IMG/VR virus record: IMGVR_UViG_3300013093_000188
Span: 1 to 30,140 of that record
Direction: 5' to 3' (one strand)
DNA from: a virus
DNA length: 30,140 nt
The notes beneath the pieces were generated by a model. The model was given only the letters and a program-made list of their open reading frames with translations, had not been told where the DNA came from and ran no database searches. Shown in pieces: positions 1,956 through 28,649 of the stretch; the stretch's first letter is position 1; each line of letters starts with the position of its first letter. Made by a program: the position numbers and the translations under genes.

Positions 1956-2272
1956 GTATGCTCCTGAAGAGTATGGAGCAGTTCTAAGAGGTCATCCTCA
2001 GTTAAAATACAATAATTTTCATTATTTAAACTAATACCGAGGATGGGTGTACGACCATCAAGAATTGCTTCTTTAACGATCTTCTCCAGAACCGCTGCTT
2101 TAACGGTAAAGGAGGTTTTGCCTGTCCACTTATGTTCGATTAAATAATCGCGTGAACGGACATCACCCTTACGGCTCCAAAAAGCACCACTGGCAGCTGT
2201 GCGCTTACCATCAAATGCTTTTGCTAACCGTGCCTCGTGCTTCTGCGACTGCTTTTGACCCTCACTCTTCAT
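1895..2272 (-). CDS. PD-(D/E)XK nuclease, Hjc-like Holliday junction resolvase
   Basis: A 125-residue protein with the motif order of small archaeal-type (Hjc) and phage junction resolvases: Glu13 in the first helix, TAASGAFWSRKGDV with Asp37, then YLIEHKWT with Glu46 and Lys48. A helix (KAAVLEKIVKEA) and a PILGISL strand follow. The product would cleave branched DNA as a dimer. The polar C-terminal tail (from about 100) is encoded where the WhiB gene overlaps it. The ATG (2270-2272) overlaps the end of recA by 11 bp. It could be a related PD-(D/E)XK endonuclease of different specificity. A RuvC-like gene nearby makes this one of two putative resolvases of unrelated fold. Confidence 0.68.
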   Translation of the reverse strand: MKSEGQKQSQKHEARLAKAFDGKRTAASGAFWSRKGDVRSRDYLIEHKWTGKTSFTVKAAVLEKIVKEAILDGRTPILGISLNNENYCILTEDDLLELLHTLQEHTCTTKTLDQNPGDTAQNAAD

Positions 2273-3302
2273 TAACGTGCTTAGAACCTGCTTTAATAGA
2301 ATCTAAGACATCCCGTTCAAGGGTCTCTTTCAAATCAATCTCTTCTCGTATAGCCTGAAGCATACCATCTTGTCCTTGCCATTGCGAACCGCCATACCGG
2401 TAGTAGGCTCCCGCTCTGGTAATAACTTTATTCATAATACCGATGGCTAGGATTTCCTTGGCAAAGTCAAATTCTCCAGCGTTCTGCCCTGAGAAGTAGA
2501 AGTCTACGACGGCTACCTGGGTAGGTGGGGCGGACTTATTCTTGATGACACGGACTTTAATGGTCTGACCGACACGACGTTTTTCTTGTCCTGTGCCTTC
2601 CTCGATCCAATCATCACGTTTTACCTCAATACGGGTAAAGAAAGCGTAGTCCTTACCTAAACCGCCTGGGGTGGTTCTAGGGTCTCCGTACATGACGCCA
2701 ATCTTTGAACGCCATTGGTTGATCATAAGACCAATGAAAGGGCGTTCTGGGGTTGTTAGTGACCGCTTAGAAGCCTTACCCACCTTACGGAAGAACTTGT
2801 TGGTCATCAACGCTGATCGACCTACCGTTGACTCTTCCATTTCTTTTTCGTCTTCTGAAACCGGCACCAAAGCAGGAAGACTATCGACAACAATGCAATC
2901 AACAGCTTTACTTTCGGTGATTTGAATAACCGCTTCATATGCCTCCTCCATGATGTTTGTAGCAACAATATACACGCGGGACGTGTCTACTCCGCACATC
3001 TCTGCGTACTCAGACACCCACTCCTCCGCAGCAACCCATACAGTTGTAAATTCTGGGTCACGTCGTTGGTTGGCGGCAATAGTCTTAAGAGCAAGGGCGG
3101 TCTTACCGTTACTTGCCTCACCAATAATTTCATGCCATTGGTTAACTGGCCAGCCACCACCAAGGGCTACATCTACGGCAACAGAACCGGTGGTAAAACG
3201 ACCGCCAGTCTCTGTAATCTCTGAACCTAGGACGATAGTATCCGCGCCCATCTTCTTATTGATCGCGGTAAATACTTTTGCTAACTCACCTGTAATTGCC
3301 AT
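2262..3302 (-). CDS. recA: RecA-like recombinase
   Basis: A 346-residue strand-exchange ATPase. Walker A is GEASNGKT (61-68). The catalytic Glu region is WVAAEEW (89-95). Walker B is CIVVDSLPALVP (136-147). The DNA-binding loop region INQWRSKIGVMYGDPRTTPGG aligns with the bacterial RecA INQIR...TTTGG segment. Length is close to bacterial RecA (about 350), although the acidic C-terminal tail is short. It would form filaments on SSB-coated ssDNA and drive recombination-dependent replication and repair. The ATG (3300-3302) overlaps the stop of the zinc-ribbon gene as TAATG. Tight coupling to phage genes on both sides argues that it belongs to the phage. The substitutions relative to bacterial RecA suggest a diverged viral lineage. 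Confidence 0.93.
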   Translation of the reverse strand: MAITGELAKVFTAINKKMGADTIVLGSEITETGGRFTTGSVAVDVALGGGWPVNQWHEIIGEASNGKTALALKTIAANQRRDPEFTTVWVAAEEWVSEYAEMCGVDTSRVYIVATNIMEEAYEAVIQITESKAVDCIVVDSLPALVPVSEDEKEMEESTVGRSALMTNKFFRKVGKASKRSLTTPERPFIGLMINQWRSKIGVMYGDPRTTPGGLGKDYAFFTRIEVKRDDWIEEGTGQEKRRVGQTIKVRVIKNKSAPPTQVAVVDFYFSGQNAGEFDFAKEILAIGIMNKVITRAGAYYRYGGSQWQGQDGMLQAIREEIDLKETLERDVLDSIKAGSKHVNEE

Positions 3303-13090: not shown

Positions 13091-13785
13091 TTGCGTAAGT
13101 CTTTACCGCCAGTGTCCAAGGGTAAGTACGCAAAAGCCTCGTGCGCAAAACTTTCTGTAGCGTCACCGTAAAGTCCAGCCCAATCTTCTAACTTGATATT
13201 AGTAGTAACAATGGTAGGCAATCCATTGTTAAAGCGTGTCCTTAAGATGTGATGAAGCATATTCTTTTGCCATCCGCTTAAGCTTGCGTGCTCTTTACCG
13301 AGATCATCGATGATAAGTACACGGATGTTAAAGGCATCGTTACGGCATTCACCTAACATTCCGTTGTAAAGATTAAGATCTAACTCATTTACATCTTCTT
13401 CCATAGTACGACCTTTCAAATTAAGAATGTCGTTAAATGTAGAAAAGAAACAGGGTGTAATAACAGTATTACCTTCTCTAACATCGAAAGATTCTATAGG
13501 GAACGTTAACATCATCTCTTGAATGATGGATAAAGCAAAAGTTGTTTTTCCTAAACCAGGCGTACCCCAAAGAAGTAAACCTAGACCGCAATCCTTTTTA
13601 CCCATGGCGCGAATTACTTTACCGTCGCGTACATCTGAGATCCATGTTTTTACGTCCTGCATGATGTCGTCTTCGATCTCGGAACAATCGTCTAGTGTCC
13701 AGCCGATGCGTGCTGTTGGAATACAGGCGGCTTGAATCCAGTGTCTACGACGGAGCTTAAAGTCTTTTGCTTTAATGTCATACAT
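13087..13785 (-). CDS. DnaC-like AAA+ helicase loader
   Basis: A 232-residue ATPase. Walker A is GTPGLGKTT (74-82). Walker B is VLIIDDLG (156-163), with the KEHAS extension typical of DnaC/DnaI. Sensor I is TIVTTNIK (191-198). The N-terminal 65 residues are basic then acidic and would contact DnaB, as in DnaC, T4 gp59-type and IstB-like loaders. Length agrees with DnaC (about 245). The sensor II and C-terminal lid are short. The ATG (13783-13785) overlaps the initiator-like gene by 8 bp, and its stop overlaps the SWIM gene by ATGA. It would place the DnaB hexamer at the origin marked by the upstream winged-helix protein. Confidence 0.86.
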   Translation of the reverse strand: MYDIKAKDFKLRRRHWIQAACIPTARIGWTLDDCSEIEDDIMQDVKTWISDVRDGKVIRAMGKKDCGLGLLLWGTPGLGKTTFALSIIQEMMLTFPIESFDVREGNTVITPCFFSTFNDILNLKGRTMEEDVNELDLNLYNGMLGECRNDAFNIRVLIIDDLGKEHASLSGWQKNMLHHILRTRFNNGLPTIVTTNIKLEDWAGLYGDATESFAHEAFAYLPLDTGGKDLRK

Positions 13786-14596
13786 CTCGTCGAAACCTCT
13801 CTCTGGACTTCATTGACTTTTGCTTCTCTGCCTGAATATCTTCAGGAGTAACCATAAGCCTTTGCGCTTGAATCATAAGACTACCGTACTGCTTAATGAA
13901 CATTTTCCAAATAAGGTCAGGGTCATTAAGCGAGGTGTTGTGCTTAATCTGCTGAAAGTATAGATCAATCATGACTTTTTCAATAGGTCCGCTGGTGCCG
14001 AATTCTTTTTGAGCATTAGCCAAAGCAACCCTGAAGGGGCTGCGGGTAACTTTCCAGGGCTTGATGTGCCAGTATTCGTACATCTGTTCGGCAAACTCAA
14101 ACGCGGTATCTGTGACCGTCCACTTAGCTGGGTCGGCTTTGTCGCGCTTCTTCATGCGTTGCTCTTCGGCCTTCTTAGCCTGAGCCTCTTCCTTGGCGCG
14201 GTGCTTCTCCTCACGGGCTTTCCGCGCAGCCTCTAAGCGGTCTTCCTCGAATTCGAAGTAAGTCATAGGTTTATCTTTCTCATCGACGTAGTCGATATAT
14301 TCGGTATATTTTAATAAGTTACTACTGTCTATTAGACTACTGTAACTAGTAGCCGTCTTGTCTATTGCCGCGGCATCGAGACCAGCTTTAGTGATGTTGA
14401 TCGCGGCTACAGGCTGTCTGCTACTCGGATCTTGGTATCGGACTGTCTCAATTAATCCCATGTCACGTAACCCGTTGATCAGACCTTGGGTCTTGTTAAT
14501 ACCCAACCCCACATTGCCAGCAATGGCTTTAGAGCCCCTACCAGAGGGGCTGTAGATCATAGCCTTAAGAACTTTAAGGTGTAACTCAGTAAACAC
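13778..14596 (-). CDS. winged-helix replication initiator-like protein
   Basis: A 272-residue protein immediately before the DnaC-like gene. Residues 1-75 form a winged-helix domain (LKVLKAMIYS, KAIAGNVGLGINKTQGLING, LRDMGLIETVRYQ, then a VAAINITKAG wing). A Ser-rich linker follows (82-92), then a highly charged Lys/Glu/Arg helix (115-155) and a helical C-terminal domain (160-250) with aromatic residues. This architecture, with a DNA-binding head, a linker and a C-terminal helical part beside a DnaC-like loader, matches phage replisome organisers (lambda O or DnaD-like) without clear sequence identity. The start is GTG (14594-14596) with AAGGGGG eight bases upstream. A repeat-rich AT tract inside this gene (14293-14366) may be the origin. 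Confidence 0.66.
   Translation of the reverse strand: MFTELHLKVLKAMIYSPSGRGSKAIAGNVGLGINKTQGLINGLRDMGLIETVRYQDPSSRQPVAAINITKAGLDAAAIDKTATSYSSLIDSSNLLKYTEYIDYVDEKDKPMTYFEFEEDRLEAARKAREEKHRAKEEAQAKKAEEQRMKKRDKADPAKWTVTDTAFEFAEQMYEYWHIKPWKVTRSPFRVALANAQKEFGTSGPIEKVMIDLYFQQIKHNTSLNDPDLIWKMFIKQYGSLMIQAQRLMVTPEDIQAEKQKSMKSRERFRRDV
14293..14366. other. AT-rich tract with nested palindrome and direct repeats (candidate replication origin)
   Basis: Inside the linker-coding part of the initiator-like gene. An AT-rich run (14293-14317) adjoins a nested inverted repeat centred on 14332. AGTTAC (14317-14322) pairs with GTAACT (14342-14347), and GTCTA (14327-14331) pairs with TAGAC (14333-14337). ACTACTGT occurs at 14321-14328 and 14336-14343. 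TGTCTATT occurs at 14326-14333 and 14359-14366. Phage origins are often located in the initiator gene with iterons beside an AT-rich unwinding element. Function is inferred from this pattern only. Confidence 0.4.
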
Positions 14597-14599
14597 GTT

Positions 14600-15220
14600 C
14601 TAAGCCCCCTTAGAAGGCGTTTTAGAGGCATGTATAAGGGCTACCACCTCTTCCGTAATTACGGCTGAGAGGGTTAAAAGGTGTTTGCTGACGATCTCAA
14701 GGATTTTGTCCTCAAGATCAGGTTCGCTTGATTCAGTAGAGGGGGTTACTGGTGCGCTAAAGAGATCCTCTAGTTCCTTAACTGTAGGGTTATGTACTTC
14801 CGACTTAGGAGCCTCTACCGCGTTAAGGGAGTTAAGACCCTCTGTTAGGTCAAATGCTGGGATGTTAGCCTCAAGGCATTGGTTGAGGGCGTCTGAGTCT
14901 GACCCGTCCCAAAGGAAGAACACGGATGACTTCTTACCCTTGATGTGGTCGATTGCCCCCGCGACGGGGTTATCGTTCTCAATAACACTGCAAGCAGGTA
15001 ACCCCGGGGCATCGGGCTTTGTGTTAAATACAACGATGTCGATATTCTTATCTTTAGCTAGTTGCGCCGCATAAATCTGACCATCGCTAGGGCGACCCTC
15101 AAAGGCAAGAACGAGTGTCCCATTCTTACCGTTGGCGTAGTAATAATCTTCCATAAGCGCATCCGTGTTCGCACGACTGGTACGCCCGTTGCCGATAACC
15201 AAGACGTAATAGTTATCCAT
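14600..15220 (-). CDS. Rossmann-like nucleotide-binding protein with helical C-terminus
   Basis: A 206-residue protein. YYVLVIGNGRTSRANTDAL (4-22) is a strand, glycine turn and helix. TLVLAFEG and DIVVFNTK are parallel strands, and VFFLWDGSDSDALNQCL is a fourth, each followed by a helix. This resembles small Rossmann/SLOG-type proteins (YspA/DprA-like) common in phages, but no active-site motif is clear. Residues 135-170 are acidic and Pro/Ser-rich (linker), and the C-terminus is a predicted helix (DKILEIVSKHLLTLSAVITEEV). The ATG (15218-15220) has a perfect AGGAGG 4 nt upstream, the strongest ribosome site in the replication half. It stands first after the 32-bp gap downstream of the membrane-protein gene. 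Possible role: nucleotide sensing or binding. Confidence 0.5.
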   Translation of the reverse strand: MDNYYVLVIGNGRTSRANTDALMEDYYYANGKNGTLVLAFEGRPSDGQIYAAQLAKDKNIDIVVFNTKPDAPGLPACSVIENDNPVAGAIDHIKGKKSSVFFLWDGSDSDALNQCLEANIPAFDLTEGLNSLNAVEAPKSEVHNPTVKELEDLFSAPVTPSTESSEPDLEDKILEIVSKHLLTLSAVITEEVVALIHASKTPSKGA

Positions 15221-15252
15221 AAGTCCTCCTAGGTTTAGGTGGGCTTACCCTA

Positions 15253-15525
15253 TCACTCTCTTGCGGAATTGATAATAGTCGGTCTGTAGGTAGATACCCG
15301 TTCGGCTGTGGTCAAGAAGACTCTTCCCAAAAAAGCGCAAGCCACCGTGTACAGAACATAGTTCTTTACCGTGCTATAGGTAATCAAGTTCCCTACCGCA
15401 GAAAATATCAAAGAAAAAACGGCATTTGGGGTCGTTGCTCCTATAAAGTCAGAGAGCACAGCCACTAGCCCTTCGACTGTGGCTAAGAAGAAAGCTGTGA
15501 ATAAACTTACAAGTATGAGGGTCAT
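15253..15525 (-). CDS. small membrane protein (possible holin)
   Basis: A 90-residue protein made largely of hydrophobic segments: about 1-20 (LILVSLFTAFFLATVEGLVA), 33-52 (PNAVFSLIFSAVGNLI) and 55-72 (YVLYTVACAFLGRVFL). That would be two or three membrane helices with a charged C-terminus (ERVSTYRPTIINSARE). Size and topology fit a phage holin. It lies at the junction between the tail module and the replication module. No endolysin gene is adjacent, so the holin call is tentative; other small phage inner-membrane proteins look the same. The ATG is at 15523-15525 and only a weak GGG-type ribosome site precedes it, 13 bp after the tail protein stop. Confidence 0.6.
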   Translation of the reverse strand: MTLILVSLFTAFFLATVEGLVAVLSDFIGATTPNAVFSLIFSAVGNLITYSTVKNYVLYTVACAFLGRVFLTTAERVSTYRPTIINSARE

Positions 15526-15538
15526 GCCCTAGATTCTA

Positions 15539-18076
15539 CTACGTCTGTGGCTGTGCGATGTATACAGCTGCAGTTGACCCTATTGGTAACTGGGCGTTCA
15601 AGGTTGCCCCGTACAAACGTGTCTGAACTACAAAACTATTCTTGTAGTAGTGGCTACGTGCGGCGTTGGCAGTTCCGCCCTCCCATATAAAGTTTCTATA
15701 GTCACCTAAACCGTTAGATCCATCAAAGTACGTTAGGAGCTGACCGCTGTTTTCAAATAAAGCGTGATCAAGGATAATGACATCACCGCTGTCAGATGTT
15801 GTCCAATCAAATTCCACGCTCGCATATGCAGTAGTGGCAGGGGCTGTGCCCGTTACATACAACCTACTCCATACACCATTACCGATAGGTGTGCTTGATC
15901 CTACGCTAGAACTGATTAATGTATAAGACGTGTTATACCAGTTGACTTTAACTACGCCAGCATCATCTGATGCCCCAACAGCCTGAGCATAAACACTAAA
16001 GGTGTAGGAGGTGCTTGGGTAGTAAATGCCAGTAAGTTGAGATGTAGTTGATCCATCCCATGAAGACACACTTGTTGACGCTCCTGAAGACGTAACTTGA
16101 AGTTGGTGTCCTGTAGCAAATACAGTTCCACCAGTAACAGTAGAGTTAGAGGCAGTCACATTGTAAGAGAATGTGTTAAGTGTTACCGATGTTATTGTTC
16201 TTGCTCCGTTGTAGTAAGAAGCGTTTGATCCAGTAACACCTGAGATAGTTACCGATGAACCGACTTGGTATGAGTGCGGTAGAGTTAAAGTAACAGTTGC
16301 AACGTCGGAAACAATGCTCGCTGTAGAGATTGAAAAAACATCAGCGTTAGGTTCAACATAGGCTGTTGTAAGCATTTGAGTGCCGTTTGTTGTAGTCCAA
16401 GGGGTTGTAGCAGTCACAAAGTTAGGGTTAATTAACTCATTAATACGATTTGCTCTTAAGGTGATATGGAGTTGTCGTGCTTCATCAAAAGAACTTGGCG
16501 TGCTTGCTACCTCGAACTGAGCTGCATCGAAGAAGTGGTGTTCGTTAGTAGCAGACCCACCAACAGAAGCAATAGATACTCCAGGCGTTGCATAATACGC
16601 ATGTGTAGGGGCAGCAGCAGATACGTATGGTCGGTATGAAGAAGAGAATAGAGCGGTATTATCAGAAACTCCTGTACCGCTTGATGTTGAAATAAAATTA
16701 CCAAAACGATCAAACCATTTTACTTTTGCTGTAACTACTCGGGCTGTTGAACCGGCGCCCTTAGCGGCGTAGATGCTAAAGCAATATGTTGTTCCAGCTG
16801 TTACAGGGATCCCATTTGTGATTGGGCTATCATCACCGCAGTACATATTGATTGTTTGAGCGCTTGTAGATAAGTTATAAAAAGCAACAATTCCATTTGC
16901 TTTATTTGGAAATAAAGTTGGCGCTGTAGACTCTACCCAAGGCGAAGGGTATGGTGTAATAAGACCGTATTGACCAGTGCTGGCATTAAATCCTGTAGTA
17001 GTAGGTAGGTCTGCAGTCGTAAGCGCAAAACTTAAAGAAGTAGAAGTAATTTCAGTAATTGTGTAAGGAGAGGTTGAGTTGATAAGAGGATAAGGCAAAC
17101 CACTTACAAGTATATAATTGCCGACATCATATTGTTGATCGTAACTTGCGCTGAAGGTTAAAGTAACTACATTTGATGTAATTGTTACTGTAAGGATTTG
17201 CATTACAGGCAATTGATCGTAATCAGAGGTTCCGTCAGTAGATACCCAATGACCTGTTCCTTCTTCAAAGGAAGAATCATTGTAGTCAAGCATAAGGTTA
17301 TGCCCTACGGTAATACCGTTAACGCTAGGGTTAGGGGTTCCAGAAATAGGGACAGGGACTCCCCAGCCACTAAAGTCTTTAATAAAACCAAGTAAACCTT
17401 CTTTAGAACCTTTTTGCTTTGTCAGCGTCACACCGTCTCGCAAAAGAATACGGTTTTGTTGAAGACCAATGGCGGGTTCATATGTTTGACCAAACTGGTT
17501 CATAAGTGTAGGGATTAATGCGCCATTAACTTTTTCAGGGTTATACCGTTGAAGCAACAGGTCTGTCATAGTTTGTTCGTAATCTAGTTCAAAACCAAAG
17601 TTTCCTAAGAAAGAATATAAAGCGGGATTTTCCCAATCAGATGATGGAGAGTATGGTTCAGTGATTTTATAGATATCTGGGAGCGCGTTATACATTTTGT
17701 CTGTATTACTATGGTCTTTAACAGATAAACTAAACGCACTTCCAGCGTTAACCCATGAGTACTGGATTAGGTTGTAGACAAAAATAGTGTAGTAATAAAA
17801 AGCACCTTGTACTAAGTTATTGTTATCTGTATAAAAAACAGGGTCTGAGCCGTTGTAGGCAGTCAAAATAACTACACCATCTGAGACATCTACTGGAAAC
17901 CCGTAAGAGTTTCTAACAATAACTAATTTAGACCAGTCACCTGTTGGGTCTGTCCAGTTTAAAAGAATCTCACCCTGTTTAGCTGGTTTAGCAGTAAATG
18001 GGGTAGCGTCAAACTTAATAGGGTTGTCTGTGCCGTAGTAGGCTTCACCGTAGTAATCAATTCCGTAGCGTGACAT
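15539..18076 (-). CDS. large tail protein: gpI-like base plus two carbohydrate-binding-like domains (receptor-binding candidate)
   Basis: An 845-residue structural protein following the gp6/J-like gene. The Tyr/Gly-rich N-terminus (RYGIDYYGEAYYG) and an Fn3-like region (to about 120) lead into a P2 gpI-like baseplate segment (125-245: ALPDIYKI, LYSFLGNFGFELDYEQT, LLLQRYNPEKV). Two beta-sandwich domains follow, each opening with an NLMLDYNDSSFEEGTGHW or ELINPNFVTATTPW signature of CBM4/9-like jelly rolls (about 258-530 and 545-780). Each is interrupted after its first strands by a beta module of about 75 residues (292-370 and 582-656). The C-terminus (790-845) is a further beta region. The usual place of the receptor-binding protein and the duplicated glycan-binding-like domains suggest host recognition. 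ATG at 18074-18076. Confidence 0.75.
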   Translation of the reverse strand: MSRYGIDYYGEAYYGTDNPIKFDATPFTAKPAKQGEILLNWTDPTGDWSKLVIVRNSYGFPVDVSDGVVILTAYNGSDPVFYTDNNNLVQGAFYYYTIFVYNLIQYSWVNAGSAFSLSVKDHSNTDKMYNALPDIYKITEPYSPSSDWENPALYSFLGNFGFELDYEQTMTDLLLQRYNPEKVNGALIPTLMNQFGQTYEPAIGLQQNRILLRDGVTLTKQKGSKEGLLGFIKDFSGWGVPVPISGTPNPSVNGITVGHNLMLDYNDSSFEEGTGHWVSTDGTSDYDQLPVMQILTVTITSNVVTLTFSASYDQQYDVGNYILVSGLPYPLINSTSPYTITEITSTSLSFALTTADLPTTTGFNASTGQYGLITPYPSPWVESTAPTLFPNKANGIVAFYNLSTSAQTINMYCGDDSPITNGIPVTAGTTYCFSIYAAKGAGSTARVVTAKVKWFDRFGNFISTSSGTGVSDNTALFSSSYRPYVSAAAPTHAYYATPGVSIASVGGSATNEHHFFDAAQFEVASTPSSFDEARQLHITLRANRINELINPNFVTATTPWTTTNGTQMLTTAYVEPNADVFSISTASIVSDVATVTLTLPHSYQVGSSVTISGVTGSNASYYNGARTITSVTLNTFSYNVTASNSTVTGGTVFATGHQLQVTSSGASTSVSSWDGSTTSQLTGIYYPSTSYTFSVYAQAVGASDDAGVVKVNWYNTSYTLISSSVGSSTPIGNGVWSRLYVTGTAPATTAYASVEFDWTTSDSGDVIILDHALFENSGQLLTYFDGSNGLGDYRNFIWEGGTANAARSHYYKNSFVVQTRLYGATLNAQLPIGSTAAVYIAQPQT
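16109..16333 (-). repeat. inserted beta module, copy 2 (residues about 582-656)
   Basis: One of three related protein modules. It has a VATVTLTLPHSYQVGSSVTI core, then SGVTGSNASYYNGARTIT and NTFSYNV. It sits within the second jelly-roll-like domain of the 845-residue tail protein. It shares the vG-v-vsG...nG...iTsvT...tFsY pattern with the copies at 16967-17203 and 18205-18423. Confidence 0.62.
16967..17203 (-). repeat. inserted beta module, copy 1 (residues about 292-370)
   Basis: Core VVTLTFSASYDQQYDVGNYI followed by LVSGLPYP, an NSTSPYTITEIT strand and SLSFAL. It interrupts the first jelly-roll-like domain of the 845-residue tail protein just after its FEEGTGHW opening, the same place as the copy in the second domain. 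It is the most diverged of the three. Confidence 0.55.
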
Positions 18077-18078
18077 GG

Positions 18079-19860
18079 TTAGCTAAGAATTCCGCCCGTT
18101 ACGTTTACAACAAGACTACCAATACCAGTTGCGCTAGGGCTGGCTGTTGCTCCAAGTTCATATAAGGTAGGTATTTCACTGGTTGCGCAAACAATGTTTC
18201 CTACTGTTAGTGCTGTTACTGAACCAGAACAAGACGCCGAAGACACGTTGTTAGCCACTAACGCGTATGAGAAAGTGTTAGTTGTTACGGAAGTCACAAC
18301 ATAAGTACCGTTGAATGTGTTGTCTACACCGGTAACCGATATTGTCTGTCCAACAGTAAGAGTGTGCGTTGCTGAAGTTGTTAATGTTGCTACATTTGAA
18401 GTAAGGGCTTTATTATCAATTGTGTATTTCTGATCTTGGTCAGCTCTAACCATTTTTGTTATGCTTTGGTAAGCAACTCCATCAACAGATGCTACTGCTG
18501 AATAAACGTCAGAGACAGCGATTGTGTCTCCAAAAACAACGTTATCAATGTAAAGCAAAGAGTTAAGCGCAGAAGTTACGTTTGTTAATACCGAAGATTG
18601 ACGATATTGCGGGGCAACAGTAACGTTAACGACTAAGTAAACACCTACATATTTGGGAGGTTGAAATGTAACTGTGGTATTAGCAGGAGTCTTGTCTACC
18701 AACGCGTTTAAAACGTTTGTTGATAGTGTGTTAAACACTGAGGTTGGAGTTACATTGTCGGATGCTACTCCAGGGTCTCCAAATGGTACAAAGTACAATG
18801 TTACAGAGGTATAAACGTTTGCTACAGCGATTGCCTTAGCCACACCAGAAACTTGGATAGCAAGTACCGCGTAGTCTGTTAAAGATACAGCTCTGTTAAT
18901 AGCTCGAATGCTTAGTGGAGCGTTTACACGAATAGAGTCAGTAGATTCAGCATCTGCTCCTCCAGTTGCTGCGCCGTCACCAGAACTTACAATATCTTGG
19001 TTAGAAACGGTAAGCCCAGCAGGTATTGTTGAACTAGGTACATTAATAATGTAAGTAATGGTGTTTGAGGCCACGTTTCCTTGTGATCCCGCACCAATTC
19101 TATAGGTTGCGTAGATAGCCACCCCGTTAGGCGGTATGCGACCACTTATGCCATCTCCAAAGGTTATATATGTGTATCCATCAGCATTTGTAAACGTTGT
19201 AAATACTGGGTCGTAACTATTTGAGTCGATTAGGTATTGAACATTTTGGTATGAAACACCATTAATAGTAATTTCAACAGAAGAATTGATTACTGAACTA
19301 TTTAAAAGTTGGTACGTTTGGTTAGCACTTCCATCAGACGTTCCAATAATCTCATTGCTTACGGTCTCTCCTTGAGTTGCAGTTACCGTAGCGGATCCAT
19401 TAGTAGCGCCTGAAGCAGCAGGGATTGTCAGTGATGAATTTGTTTCAAATACAACTTGAGTTGTAGTTGCGTTTTGAATTAAAGACGTAGCGACTTGAGT
19501 TAGCGCTGGGATAGTAATAGGGGAACTTGTTGAGTTTTGGAAGGTAAGGGTTACGGTTGAGGGCGTAATGTCAGTGGGGGTGTACCCAAGCAAATTAGCA
19601 ATCTGAAGAACACTAGCGCGTTGGGTAGCCGTTGAGATAAAGGCCTCGTTAGCAGCTCTATCAATATAGTAGTTGAGAATGTCTCCCATATACGCAAAAA
19701 GTTCAAGCAAGGTCATGCCAAAATCGGCTGGGTCTCTGTTAGTCCATAGAGGGGAGAAATTAGGGATCAAATTTGTCATATCAGACAAAATAGAGGCGTA
19801 GTCCCTAGATGTGTAGTCTACAGACGGCACAAAGTTACTTGTTGTACTACTTGTTGCCAT
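18079..19860 (-). CDS. baseplate wedge protein, gp6/J-like
   Basis: A 593-residue baseplate protein. The N-terminal signature of the T4 gp6/phage J family is clear: DFGMTLLELFAYMGDILNYY (46-65), DRAANEAFISTATQRASV and LLGYTP. The middle contains TFGDGISGRIPPNG (233-246), typical of the family, then IRAINRAVSLTDYAVLAIQV and VTVAPQY. The protein ends with EIPTLYELG...VNVTGGI, the usual C-terminal strand pair. Before this end a beta module is inserted (about 480-552), which makes the protein unusually long. The ATG (19858-19860) has GGAGGT five bases upstream and overlaps gp25 by 14 bp. It forms the wedge ring that triggers sheath contraction with gp25. Confidence 0.9.
   Translation of the reverse strand: MATSSTTSNFVPSVDYTSRDYASILSDMTNLIPNFSPLWTNRDPADFGMTLLELFAYMGDILNYYIDRAANEAFISTATQRASVLQIANLLGYTPTDITPSTVTLTFQNSTSSPITIPALTQVATSLIQNATTTQVVFETNSSLTIPAASGATNGSATVTATQGETVSNEIIGTSDGSANQTYQLLNSSVINSSVEITINGVSYQNVQYLIDSNSYDPVFTTFTNADGYTYITFGDGISGRIPPNGVAIYATYRIGAGSQGNVASNTITYIINVPSSTIPAGLTVSNQDIVSSGDGAATGGADAESTDSIRVNAPLSIRAINRAVSLTDYAVLAIQVSGVAKAIAVANVYTSVTLYFVPFGDPGVASDNVTPTSVFNTLSTNVLNALVDKTPANTTVTFQPPKYVGVYLVVNVTVAPQYRQSSVLTNVTSALNSLLYIDNVVFGDTIAVSDVYSAVASVDGVAYQSITKMVRADQDQKYTIDNKALTSNVATLTTSATHTLTVGQTISVTGVDNTFNGTYVVTSVTTNTFSYALVANNVSSASCSGSVTALTVGNIVCATSEIPTLYELGATASPSATGIGSLVVNVTGGILS
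18205..18423 (-). repeat. inserted beta module, copy 3, in the gp6/J-like protein (residues about 480-552)
   Basis: Core SNVATLTTSATHTLTVGQTI then SVTGVDNTFNGTYVVTSVT and NTFSYALV. It is inserted between the conserved C-terminal part of the gp6/J-like protein (VRADQDQKY) and its closing strands (NIVCATSEIPTL). It matches copy 2 best: VAT-LT...H...VG..I.V.GV...NG...TSVT.NTFSY. Confidence 0.62.
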
Positions 19861-23391: not shown

Positions 23392-25485
23392 TTAGCTCTT
23401 TCCTATACTCTGAGCAGGATTTTGTAAGATCTTTTTAACTTCTGCAGCCACTTTATTTGGATCAGTAACTCCATTGATGTTAATAGTAAATCCGCCGTAA
23501 TTAACGTTACTACCGGTTGCAACTTGACCCCCAAATGCTGCAGCCTGCGCTGCGGCAAACCTTGATGCGGCAGTAGGGTCTGCTTGGGGCACAACAGTTG
23601 AAGATGTAGATGTAGAAGTTCCAGAAGGACCAGAGGATACTGTTACTGTAGGATCCCATTTTCCTTTAATTGCTTGTACACCTAAATTAGCTCTTTTTTG
23701 AGCGGCTGACGTGCTTTGGTCAAGAGGACGTTCATATTGTTGCATAAACAAAGCTGCAGCATTTCCCTCTGTTATTCCTTTACTAGAAAGGGTCTTCCAA
23801 AGAGAAGGATAATTAGTCTTCATCTCGGACACTAAGAACTTTTCTTGTGCCGTCACACTTGTTGGGCTTAAGTGGTTTTTTTCAGCAAAAGCCTTTAGGT
23901 TAGACCATCGGGTATCGTGCCACTGAGCAATACCACCAGAAGTTCCGCTATCACCTACAGATAGGGGATTTAGGTTAGATTCTCCCACCAAGTTACCGAC
24001 AACGCCAGTAGCACCGCTAGGACTTAAGCCATTCTTAATTAAAAAGTTATATATTTCCATAGGGGTTCCGCCACCGGCTTTTGCCCCACCGCCTTGGTCT
24101 CTATTGAGCCCTAGCATGTGGTTTGGAACAACTACCCCATCAGTTTTAGGCACAAATAGCTCAGGTCCTTTTTCACCAACAATATAAGGCGCTTTTCCAT
24201 CGGCCGGACCACCCTCTGCCAATAAACCAAAACCCAGTAAAGGAAGAAGGTCAGAAAGAGATACATCTGCAAGAGAAGGGATTAACTTGCTTATAAGTGG
24301 GATTACTTCTCCTAATCCTTTACTTCCTAAAGATGTTTTTCCTAATAATTTACCGCCAAGTAGTCCTGCGCCCATCTTTAGAGCCCCTCCGCCTATGCTT
24401 AAAGCGGTTGAGCCAAATCCTTTACCTCCACCAAGAGCGGCAGTTAGGTCACTCATAGAAGAGGCGAGGTTGTTCATTCCAGTACCAATATCAGCAGCTC
24501 CAGCGTATCCGCCAGCAGTAGCGGAAGACGTTGCTGTAAGAAGGTTTGTTTGAGCGGAAACTTGAGCTGCCATATTCCTGGTTGTTGCTGATTGAAGACC
24601 TAGGCTAGTAGCTTGGTTTCTTGTCAAAGAGCTTAAAGATGTTTTACCACCCATTTTTGCTTTTGTAATAAGTCCATCAAAAACAAGTTTCATCATAACA
24701 GGATCGCCGTTAAACAATCCTGAAACCATGTTATAGATTCCGTAACCAGGTTGCATAGAGTATTGAAGATCCGTTGGATCCATACCATTGCCACCACTTG
24801 TCTTATTAAGATAATTCCAGATTTGGTCAATAAGTTGTGGAAGTGGAAGCATCGAACCATCACTACCACGGATATTGATTCCAATAGTTCTAGCAAGGTT
24901 AACTGTGGTTGGGGCATTCATTGTTCCAGCAACCGCTTGAGCAATCGCTGTTTGTCCCATACCGGGTTCCATGTTAGACGCTGTAGCAACCCCAGCCATA
25001 ACTTTGTTAAAGTTACTAACTCCACCTAAACCAGCATTTTGAGCAGCAATGATGGCGTTTGTAGTATCCATGGAGTTAAGAGCAGTTCCGGTATTAGCCA
25101 TACTTTTTTGTAAAGATCTAACTTGAGCAGAGTTAGTTGCTCCACCAAAGCCATAGAAGGTAGACCGTTGGGTAAGATAATCCTGCATAACTGCAGTAGA
25201 AACGTTAGGAAGTCCGGCAGTAGCGATACCTACAGCGGCCGCTCCCATAGCAATTTTGTTTGTACTAGAACCGCTTGGGCTTGAGGCTATTTGATTTCCG
25301 CCACCATTACCGCTACCACCACCGCCACCTACTCCCATGCCTGAGAAGGCTCTAGCTACGGATTGTACTTTAGGTAAAAGGGTGTTCTCAATGGTGGTTG
25401 CTAACTGAAGAATGTCCTTATTAATATTTGTTACAGTGTTTGAGACACTGCCTAAGTTCATTCCAGCCTTAGCATCGTCAGCCAT
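23392..25485 (-). CDS. tape measure protein with tail lysozyme domain
   Basis: A 697-residue protein. Residues 1-60 are helical with a Gly-rich spacer (GVGGGGGSGNGGGN, 51-64). A helical Ala/Gln/Thr-rich body follows to about 420. The tape-measure C-terminal motif AEGGP...YIVGEKGPELFVP is at 423-446. Residues 474-608 form a phage tail lysozyme domain (TPMEIYNFLIKNGLSPSGAT, GVVGNLVGESNLNP with catalytic Glu502, SGGIAQWHDTRW, FMQQYERP). The last strands (NYGGFTININGVTD) end the protein. The start ATG (25483-25485) has a GGAGGT site overlapping the preceding stop. The helical length would set the tail length, and the lysozyme part would open the cell wall during injection. Confidence 0.9.
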   Translation of the reverse strand: MADDAKAGMNLGSVSNTVTNINKDILQLATTIENTLLPKVQSVARAFSGMGVGGGGGSGNGGGNQIASSPSGSSTNKIAMGAAAVGIATAGLPNVSTAVMQDYLTQRSTFYGFGGATNSAQVRSLQKSMANTGTALNSMDTTNAIIAAQNAGLGGVSNFNKVMAGVATASNMEPGMGQTAIAQAVAGTMNAPTTVNLARTIGINIRGSDGSMLPLPQLIDQIWNYLNKTSGGNGMDPTDLQYSMQPGYGIYNMVSGLFNGDPVMMKLVFDGLITKAKMGGKTSLSSLTRNQATSLGLQSATTRNMAAQVSAQTNLLTATSSATAGGYAGAADIGTGMNNLASSMSDLTAALGGGKGFGSTALSIGGGALKMGAGLLGGKLLGKTSLGSKGLGEVIPLISKLIPSLADVSLSDLLPLLGFGLLAEGGPADGKAPYIVGEKGPELFVPKTDGVVVPNHMLGLNRDQGGGAKAGGGTPMEIYNFLIKNGLSPSGATGVVGNLVGESNLNPLSVGDSGTSGGIAQWHDTRWSNLKAFAEKNHLSPTSVTAQEKFLVSEMKTNYPSLWKTLSSKGITEGNAAALFMQQYERPLDQSTSAAQKRANLGVQAIKGKWDPTVTVSSGPSGTSTSTSSTVVPQADPTAASRFAAAQAAAFGGQVATGSNVNYGGFTININGVTDPNKVAAEVKKILQNPAQSIGKS

Positions 25486-27134: not shown

Positions 27135-28649
27135 TTACGCCACAGTAACGGTGGTTCCACCGTCATACTGACCAATGTTGAGTACTACAAATTCAGCTGG
27201 GCGTTGTAGAGCAACTCCAACTTGGATATTTACAATTCCATTATCAATAGATGATTGTGGATTGTTGTCCGCGTCACACTTCACAAAGTAAGCGTTAGCA
27301 GGGCTTGTTCCTGTTAATCCTCCCTGAGCCCAGAAAGCAGTAAGGAAAGAACTAACAGCAGCGTTAATGCGTGCCCACAAACGAGCATCGTTTGGCTCAA
27401 ATACAGCAAAACGAGTAATGTCACGAAGTGACTTCTCGATGTAAATAAGGCTACGACGAACTGGAACGTAACGATCTACGTATCCGCCCTTAAGGGTGCG
27501 GGCACCAAAGACCACAATTCCAGAACCTGAGATGTATCGGATTGCGTTAACAGGAGCCGCAGCACTGTTCATAGAATCCAAATTAGCATTTGTTAGAGAA
27601 GGAACAGAAACCACACCCGCTAGGCGAGCCTGTAGTCCAGCAGGAGCCTTGAACACTCCACGAGAGTTATCTGTGGTTGCATATAGACCAACAACAGCAG
27701 CGCCTGCTCCAACAGTCTTAACGGCACCAGTTGATGATCCAACAGTAGCTGTTGGGTCAGCAATTGTAAGTGGTGGGTAGTAAACAGCAGCATAAGAGGT
27801 TGCTGTATATGTACCCGCAAGAGTTAATTGGTTTGCTACTGTGTCGTTAACTCCGTCAATAACAACAAACACGTCATTTGAACGGGTTGATCCTGTTGCG
27901 TAGGAGATAGCACCGTTGATAGTTGTTGCGTCGGTATAGCCCGGGATGTTAAGCACTAGAGATTGTGGGATTGTATCGTAAGAACTAAGAGCAGACACGA
28001 TGGTTGAACCTGTTACAGAAGATCCGTCTGAACCTGAAGTTAGAGCAGCATTTGAAACTGTTGTTGGGTTACGTGTAGCGCCTGTTGCTGTAGATCCTGA
28101 ATCGATTGCTGTGATGTATGTTGAGTTGTTATTAATGATTGTTACAGCATAACGAGGGTCAGTTGCTGTCATTGACACATCTGTCCACTGCTCAACAATA
28201 TTTGCAGCAGTTGCTCCGTTGTAGTAAACAACTACGTTGAAGTAACCAGTGATAGTAGAGGCTGTGATGCTGATATTGATGTTGTTACCCCAAGTACCTG
28301 GGTTAATTGCAGTAAGTTGAAGCGTGTTTGCTGGGCTACCTTCTCCGTCTTGGAAAGTACGGGTAGCAGAAGCTGCGCTAGAACCAGCAACGCGTGTAAC
28401 ATATGCTTGGCTTCCGCCGTTAGCAAAGTACATGTAAAGAGCTAGTGGAAGGTTGTTGTTTTGAACTGTGTTCCAAGAACCAAATGAGTTGACATATTGG
28501 CTCCAAGAAGTTACTAGAGTAGGTGTAACTGGTCCACGGTCGTTTGCACCAATAAATGCTGCAACAGTATTTGACGCGGCACCAGCAACTGGTTGAATAG
28601 GGTTTAGCGTTTCTTGAACGTACACCCCAGGGCGTAGGTAGGTTGTCAT
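27135..28649 (-). CDS. tail sheath protein (gp18-like)
   Basis: A 504-residue contractile sheath subunit. YLRPGVYVQET (4-14) is the well-known sheath start. The C-terminal domain has VGLYATTDNSRGVFKAPAG, GSGIVVFGARTL, YVPVRRSLIYIEKSLRD and ARINAAVSSFLTAFW, and then INIQ-like strands (VNIQVGVALQRPAEFVVLN, about 475-495), the usual joining arm. The middle (110-300) is a variable Thr/Ser-rich domain that protrudes from the sheath. Length is between R-type pyocin sheaths (about 390) and T4 gp18 (659). AAGGAGAT lies before the ATG at 28647-28649. It contracts to drive the tube through the envelope and proves the myovirus morphology. Confidence 0.95.
   Translation of the reverse strand: MTTYLRPGVYVQETLNPIQPVAGAASNTVAAFIGANDRGPVTPTLVTSWSQYVNSFGSWNTVQNNNLPLALYMYFANGGSQAYVTRVAGSSAASATRTFQDGEGSPANTLQLTAINPGTWGNNINISITASTITGYFNVVVYYNGATAANIVEQWTDVSMTATDPRYAVTIINNNSTYITAIDSGSTATGATRNPTTVSNAALTSGSDGSSVTGSTIVSALSSYDTIPQSLVLNIPGYTDATTINGAISYATGSTRSNDVFVVIDGVNDTVANQLTLAGTYTATSYAAVYYPPLTIADPTATVGSSTGAVKTVGAGAAVVGLYATTDNSRGVFKAPAGLQARLAGVVSVPSLTNANLDSMNSAAAPVNAIRYISGSGIVVFGARTLKGGYVDRYVPVRRSLIYIEKSLRDITRFAVFEPNDARLWARINAAVSSFLTAFWAQGGLTGTSPANAYFVKCDADNNPQSSIDNGIVNIQVGVALQRPAEFVVLNIGQYDGGTTVTVA

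Follow-up and report, generated by a model that had tools for sequence, protein, structure and literature searches.

A small module, most likely a β-barrel, recurring as an insert within a baseplate wedge protein and a fibre-like protein of a phage tail

Introduction

The β-barrel of endosialidases is present as an insert within the endosialidase propeller. A site for sialic acid and loops that discriminate between hosts were reported in the β-barrel of the K1F enzyme (PMC12632334). Other accessory domains of phage virions were found to adopt an Ig-like fold, and weak carbohydrate binding was proposed for them (Fraser 2006, as presented in the passages that cite it in PMC10684548 and PMC9230969); glycan contact was also proposed for the Ig-like domains of tail sheaths (PMC9230969). 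The insertion of CBMs in the baseplate protein Dit was found to promote adsorption, an effect that was tested (PMC10688798), and the searched passages of Smug 2023 (PMC10684548) describe a continuing shuffling of domains in phage tail and receptor-binding proteins. The principle of exchangeable accessory tail domains, such as the Ig-like domains and the evolved Dit, is known.

The present analysis concerns a module of 72-80 residues that was found as an insert in two adjacent tail genes of a virus record of 30,140 bases, the whole stretch of which is referred to here as the window.

Results

Genes of the window

Both module-bearing genes are encoded on the minus strand. The protein P0002 (18079..19860, minus strand, 593 aa), referred to as J, was found to match Baseplate_J of Pfam (PF04865, 38.5 bits against a cut-off of 21.1, E 1e-9) and the baseplate wedge of PHROG (E 5e-46). 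It adjoins a gp25-like gene (GPW_gp25, 27.8 bits against a cut-off of 27.2), and both its family and its place after this gene were those of a gp6/J-like baseplate wedge protein. The next gene downstream encodes P0001 (15539..18076, minus strand, 845 aa), a receptor-binding or fibre-like protein referred to as the fibre, with a weak match to Tail_P2_I of Pfam (E 0.16). The tail sheath (27135..28649, minus strand, 504 aa, PHROG tail sheath E 1.5e-44) was found to be free of the module.

The window was also found to encode a phage tail lysozyme domain (PF18013) in a protein of 697 aa (23392-25485), whose gene lies between those of the tube/hub and those of the baseplate. Downstream of the fibre lie three genes (272, 206 and 90 aa, 13778-15525) without any Pfam or PHROG match. 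A RecA/UvsX-like recombinase is encoded at 2262-3302 and might mediate recombination between modules.

Three copies of the module

The initial annotation had described a repeated segment of about 75 residues, present once in J and twice in the next gene, as a mobile Ig-like insertion, and it had proposed structure prediction, a profile search and a comparison with relatives lacking the insertion as checks. The repeat was found to be real by BLASTP, by shuffling and by a profile built from the copies of relatives, and its coordinates were correct to within a few residues. The copy m1 occupies J residues 480-551 (18208..18423, minus strand, profile E 1.7e-28), whereas the fibre contains m2 at residues 292-371 (16964..17203, minus strand, E 2e-22) and m3 at residues 579-654 (16115..16342, minus strand, E 2.6e-20). 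The three copies were found to be mutually related, with 37.5% identity between m1 and m3 (E 2.8e-8) and an E value of 0.008 between m1 and m2 in BLASTP within J and the fibre. The pair scores reached z values of 11.4, 6.2 and 6.2, and none of 1000 shuffles attained any of them. A six-frame search of the window with the profile gave no match below E 0.08 beyond m1-m3. The conserved positions of the module were found to be chiefly structural (G, V, T and F/Y). At the DNA level, the three copies showed only patchy similarity and are therefore not recent duplicates of one another. The identity of the module and its insertion into its hosts are held with high confidence.

Fold of the module

In the predicted structure of J, m1 was found to form a barrel. 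Residues 80-157 of this model (J 475-552) were found to match the FCCH domain of UBA6 (7sol, Z 10.4, 2.2 Å over 76 residues) and the phi92 endosialidase (4hiz, Z 10.0, 2.1 Å over 77 residues), and the K1F endosialidase was also present in the Foldseek list for the J model. The phi92 endosialidase was again the top match, at a weak E value of 0.04, in a profile search of solved structures (PDB). On the predicted model, m1 has the small β-barrel fold of FCCH and endosialidase domains.

In Pfam, the best window copy for E1_FCCH (PF16190) was m3 with 16.7 bits (E 0.0075), below the cut-off of 29.5 bits, and weak matches to this family were found in 14 of the 51 family copies at E<=1 (best E 1.1e-4). 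The family End_beta_barrel (PF12195) was matched by two of the 51 copies (best E 1.3e-5), with the first window copy unmatched. A single copy of the 51 was found to contain an Ig-type match (Big_9, E 0.037). An Ig-like fold was absent among the matches listed, of which the top ones for the module are FCCH and the endosialidase barrel. The Ig-like label of the initial annotation was therefore not supported, although a family that such a list leaves out may still match. Taken together, the structure matches, the weak Pfam matches and the PDB profile search indicate that the module is most likely a small barrel of the FCCH/endosialidase fold and not an Ig domain, a call that was made on the predicted model of m1, with m2 and m3 included solely through their homology to it in sequence. 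A literature search for FCCH domains in phages returned nothing relevant.

The module in J and its host domain

The AF2 model of J residues 396-593 (pLDDT 90) was found to contain the C-terminal domain of J, with m1 placed between a host strand at residues 462-472 (18445..18477, minus strand) and the last host strands at residues 562-591 (18088..18177, minus strand). With the module passed over in the alignment, the rest of the model matched the C-terminal domains of gp6/J proteins from a Streptomyces contractile injection system (9gtp, Z 12.0), cyanophage A-1(L) (Z 11.2), T4 gp6 (Z 10.6) and Mu (Z 10.0). The copy m1 was found to be missing from the J proteins of the Streptomyces phages BRock, GiJojo and LuckySocke, which share 35-38% identity with the window J where they match it, and from those of four genome contigs with 30-34% identity; in these proteins a short turn connects the two host strands. 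Mu and cyanophage A-1(L) likewise have J domains with the host fold and no m1. Within the close clade, m1 was present in nearly all J relatives. The model and the module-less relatives with their tight turn thus agree with the earlier observation that the segment interrupts the last strands of J.

The interval that holds m1 appears to be about 120 residues longer in T4 gp6 than in the bare domain, as judged from two ranges: the profile alignment extends to T4 residue 489, and the structural match extends to residue 659. The m1 site therefore seems to be a place where wedge proteins can grow, and the description of the wedge-core insertion as unusual was overstated although the insertion itself stood. 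In a distant J relative (L079:5362-7062, 45% identity), another β segment was found at the m1 site, so the J hairpin may take other modules.

The modules in the fibre and their origin

The fibre model (AF2, mean pLDDT 74) was found to contain a predicted β-sandwich domain at about residues 28-119, which is probably FnIII-like, followed by a helical part (124-235) and two tandem jelly rolls; the module stretches reached a pLDDT of about 83-92. The CBM-like jelly roll d1 (16493..17299, minus strand, residues 260-528) is interrupted by m2, and the CBM4/22-like jelly roll d2 (15731..16441, minus strand, residues 546-782) is interrupted by m3. The pair was found to resemble tandem CBM22 in a match to the model. 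The fold of d2 on the predicted model was that of a CBM4/22 jelly roll, with CBM4-2 (4bj0) matched at Z 14.9 and 2.4 Å over 141 residues within model residues 545-777 (233 residues); about 90 residues therefore remain unaligned, which is the size of m3. No CBM family of Pfam was found for the fibre jelly rolls at E<=1. When the modules were left out, d1 and d2 were found to align with each other (z 9.9), and both are interrupted in the same early loop; this alignment, together with the CBM matches, bears out the earlier view that both fibre modules interrupt jelly-roll-like domains at one position.

Both m2 and m3 were present in 68 of 68 distinct complete fibre relatives of the close clade, and no relative with one or zero modules was found among these 68, so the evidence for an insert-free m2/m3 site is structural, from the CBM4/22 folds that do not contain the module, and not at the level of sequence.

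The initial annotation had counted three insertions, and the three copies were found as described; three separate events were an overstatement. The location of m2 and m3 at the same position of two paralogous jelly rolls, and the joint retention of both copies in all 68 fibre relatives, make it somewhat more likely than not that a jelly roll received the module once and was then duplicated in tandem together with it, which would give two insertion events in the window. The module tree gave no supported grouping of the two slots (0.0), which counts against this origin. The more economical account is that the insertion preceded the jelly-roll duplication, a point on which the tree gives no decision, and such an origin is compatible with any functional reading of the module.

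Extra and nested copies in relatives

Every insertion of at least 35 aa in the J and fibre relatives was scanned, and each was found to be a further copy of the module, except for a 95-aa insert in the L051 fibre and those of the distant L079. Module scores were obtained for the inserts at J residues 147, 498 and 545 and at fibre residues 86, 311 and 529; six inserted segments reached 13-76 bits, whereas their shuffles (300 each) reached at most 7. At about J residue 147 (19413..19425, minus strand), L051 and L075 carry a module that the window lacks. This extra copy was not close to any resident copy in the module tree, and its source is therefore probably a different lineage of the module. 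A copy inside m1 was found in L032 and L107, a copy in the first fibre domain in L051, and a copy inside m2 in L032, L041, L045 and L049; in L049, a 235-aa insert with several module copies also lies after fibre residue 529. In L032 the copies were found to be nested in both J and the fibre, where the resident copy holds the new one in its first loop.

The 95-aa insert of the L051 fibre, located after window fibre residue 246, was tried as a candidate copy and rejected (-4.4 bits). It shows a 'GNGVQPNTLITNV'-type β pattern, and another accessory module may be involved.

Spread between genes and phages

Module-bearing ORFs, as assigned by module-free queries, comprised 111 J, 104 fibre, 40 sheath and 34 other proteins; the underlying searches were directed at J, at the fibre or at the module itself, and the counts are no measure of abundance. 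Labels from the full J query (130 J, 15 other) were discarded, as they were contaminated by module-only matches and changed to 111 and 34 with the module-free queries.

The copy nested in the J of L032 represents a sister subtype, B, which was found in the tail sheath of some relatives and is absent from the window sheath. It showed 55-85% amino acid identity to copies in other proteins, including tail sheaths (phrog_23). In the sheath of relatives, the module site was located after about residue 102 or 133 of the window sheath, and the sheath of L166 was found to contain two modules in tandem. Among the close sheath relatives fetched with the module-less window sheath, 30 were without the module and 3 contained it. 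At the DNA level, sheath copies reached up to 79% identity over about 200 nt to copies in another protein. Microbacterium phage Big4 gave the best isolate match of m1, a segment of its major tail protein with 51% identity, whereas the identity of m1 to m3 of the window was 37.5%.

Exchange of the module between genes and phages is considered probable. The word mobile in the initial annotation holds for the family, in view of the J proteins lacking m1, the copies at new sites and those in sheath and unrelated proteins; the window copies were found to be fixed in the close clade.

Some ORFs of 731-754 aa that are unrelated to the window J (L291, L274, L308, L313 and L314) were found to contain a module 56-69% identical to m1, the ORF of L291 belonging to phrog_11667 (unknown function). 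Unassigned proteins of about 290-460 aa (L165, L179/L195/L197, L218/L222/L224, L225 and L175) contained one to four modules, and the two tested from this set, L165 and L175, also matched PASTA weakly.

Discussion

Proposed role of the module

The best overall explanation, favoured on balance, is that of a self-contained small β-barrel that would fit into structural proteins at an exposed hairpin or loop and leave the host fold unbroken. Recombination would carry it among virion genes, and it would be retained where it projects from the tail, namely in the wedge protein J, the CBM-like jelly rolls, the sheath and the major tail protein, whose sites are presumably exposed on the virion. There it may act as an accessory surface module that makes weak, many-fold contacts with cell-surface glycans and thereby aids adsorption. 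That weak glycan adhesion is the main benefit of the module is put forward more tentatively, at slightly less than an even chance, by analogy with the sialic-acid site of the K1F barrel, the adsorption effect of CBM insertions in Dit and the glycan-contact proposal for sheath Ig-like domains. The CBM fold predicted for the hosts of m2 and m3 also favours glycan contact. Weak glycan binding or a change of host range, as put forward in the initial annotation, would be a plausible role. Against it, no obvious set of sugar-binding residues was found to be common to the module copies, and the FCCH-type fold has a non-glycan role in E1 enzymes.

A structural role as cement or spacer, in which the barrel would bridge neighbouring wedges, fibres or sheath subunits and stabilise the virion with glycans uninvolved, is given a smaller yet appreciable chance. 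It would account for the conservation of m1, the mean identity of which (61%) was equal to that of the J core (61%) and above that of its own host domain (51%), along with its presence in nearly all close J relatives; extra sheath domains have likewise been proposed as tail stabilisers (PMC9230969). The mean identity of m2 (46%) and m3 (41%) was lower than that of their hosts (60% and 52%, respectively), which speaks against a cement. These identities suggest that m1 may have acquired a structural role and that m2 and m3 may be freer; for m1, such conservation would fit a structural role better than a variable receptor-binding surface. A cement is also hard to reconcile with the optional module of the sheath (30 relatives without, 3 with) and with extra copies that occur in some relatives only, even inside other copies, because such sporadic and nested copies require no fixed partner interface.

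It is unlikely that the module expands in a nearly neutral manner, folding alone and being inserted or duplicated in tandem harmlessly without any consistent function. The tandem and nested copies (the L166 sheath, the 235-aa insert of the L049 fibre, and L032) and the restriction of extra copies to few relatives are what such an expansion would produce, but m1, m2 and m3 were kept across the clade and the family pattern persists in diverged phages. The assigned cross-gene copies were also all located in tail proteins, in a sample not designed to test other genes.

A bolder extension of the favoured surface-module explanation, in which the barrel would be an intragenic mobile protein element of tails that enters exposed hairpins repeatedly and in frame, its own first loop included, in several genes per genome and by a route favouring its ends, such that any outward-facing tail protein could be decorated, is unlikely.

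That the segments are integral, ancestral parts of their host domains, as their constant or nearly constant presence in the close clade might indicate, is highly improbable. For J it is already contradicted by proteins that keep the host fold without the module, those of the Streptomyces phages, of genome contigs, of Mu and of cyanophage A-1(L), and the CBM4/22 folds that lack the module also oppose it.

Significance

For the decoration of phage tails, the module offers a testable single-domain case with occupied and empty sites, nested copies and cross-gene transfer in comparable relatives. Its sites mark insertion-tolerant points in a wedge protein and a sheath protein, and, in the event of glycan binding, the module would serve the wedge, the sheath and the receptor-binding protein as a compact tag for adhesion. 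The barrel fold also explains the weak and otherwise misleading matches of such phage proteins to ubiquitin-E1 domains.

Comparison with known systems

The module was found to share its predicted fold and its location in a phage tail protein with the endosialidase barrels of phi92 and K1F (End_beta_barrel PF12195; 4hiz, 1v0e), with a weak sequence match (E 0.04). The endosialidase barrel belongs to a glycan-cleaving tailspike and contains a known sialic-acid site, whereas the present module occurs in multiple copies in a wedge protein, jelly rolls and sheaths. The FCCH domain of ubiquitin E1 (PF16190) shares the predicted fold and weak sequence matches, and the module has no tie to ubiquitin activation.

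The Ig-like domains of phage virions are likewise promiscuous accessory β domains exchanged between phages, but they differ in fold, and the present module is inserted within domains and within itself. The evolved Dit of lactococcal phages (PMC10688798) also contains an internal insertion in a baseplate protein that is present or absent among relatives; its insert is a CBM of about 168 aa with a tested effect on adsorption, whereas the module is a small barrel with a putative role. Extra domains of tail sheaths (PMC9230969) are similarly optional β domains on the sheath core of some phages; they were described as mostly Ig-like, whereas the module is common, at high identity, to other virion genes. 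Neither the module nor its nested insertion was found in the searched passages of PMC10684548. The new elements are the fold, the insertion within domains and within resident copies, and the occurrence in proteins as varied as the wedge, the receptor-binding protein, the sheath and the major tail protein.
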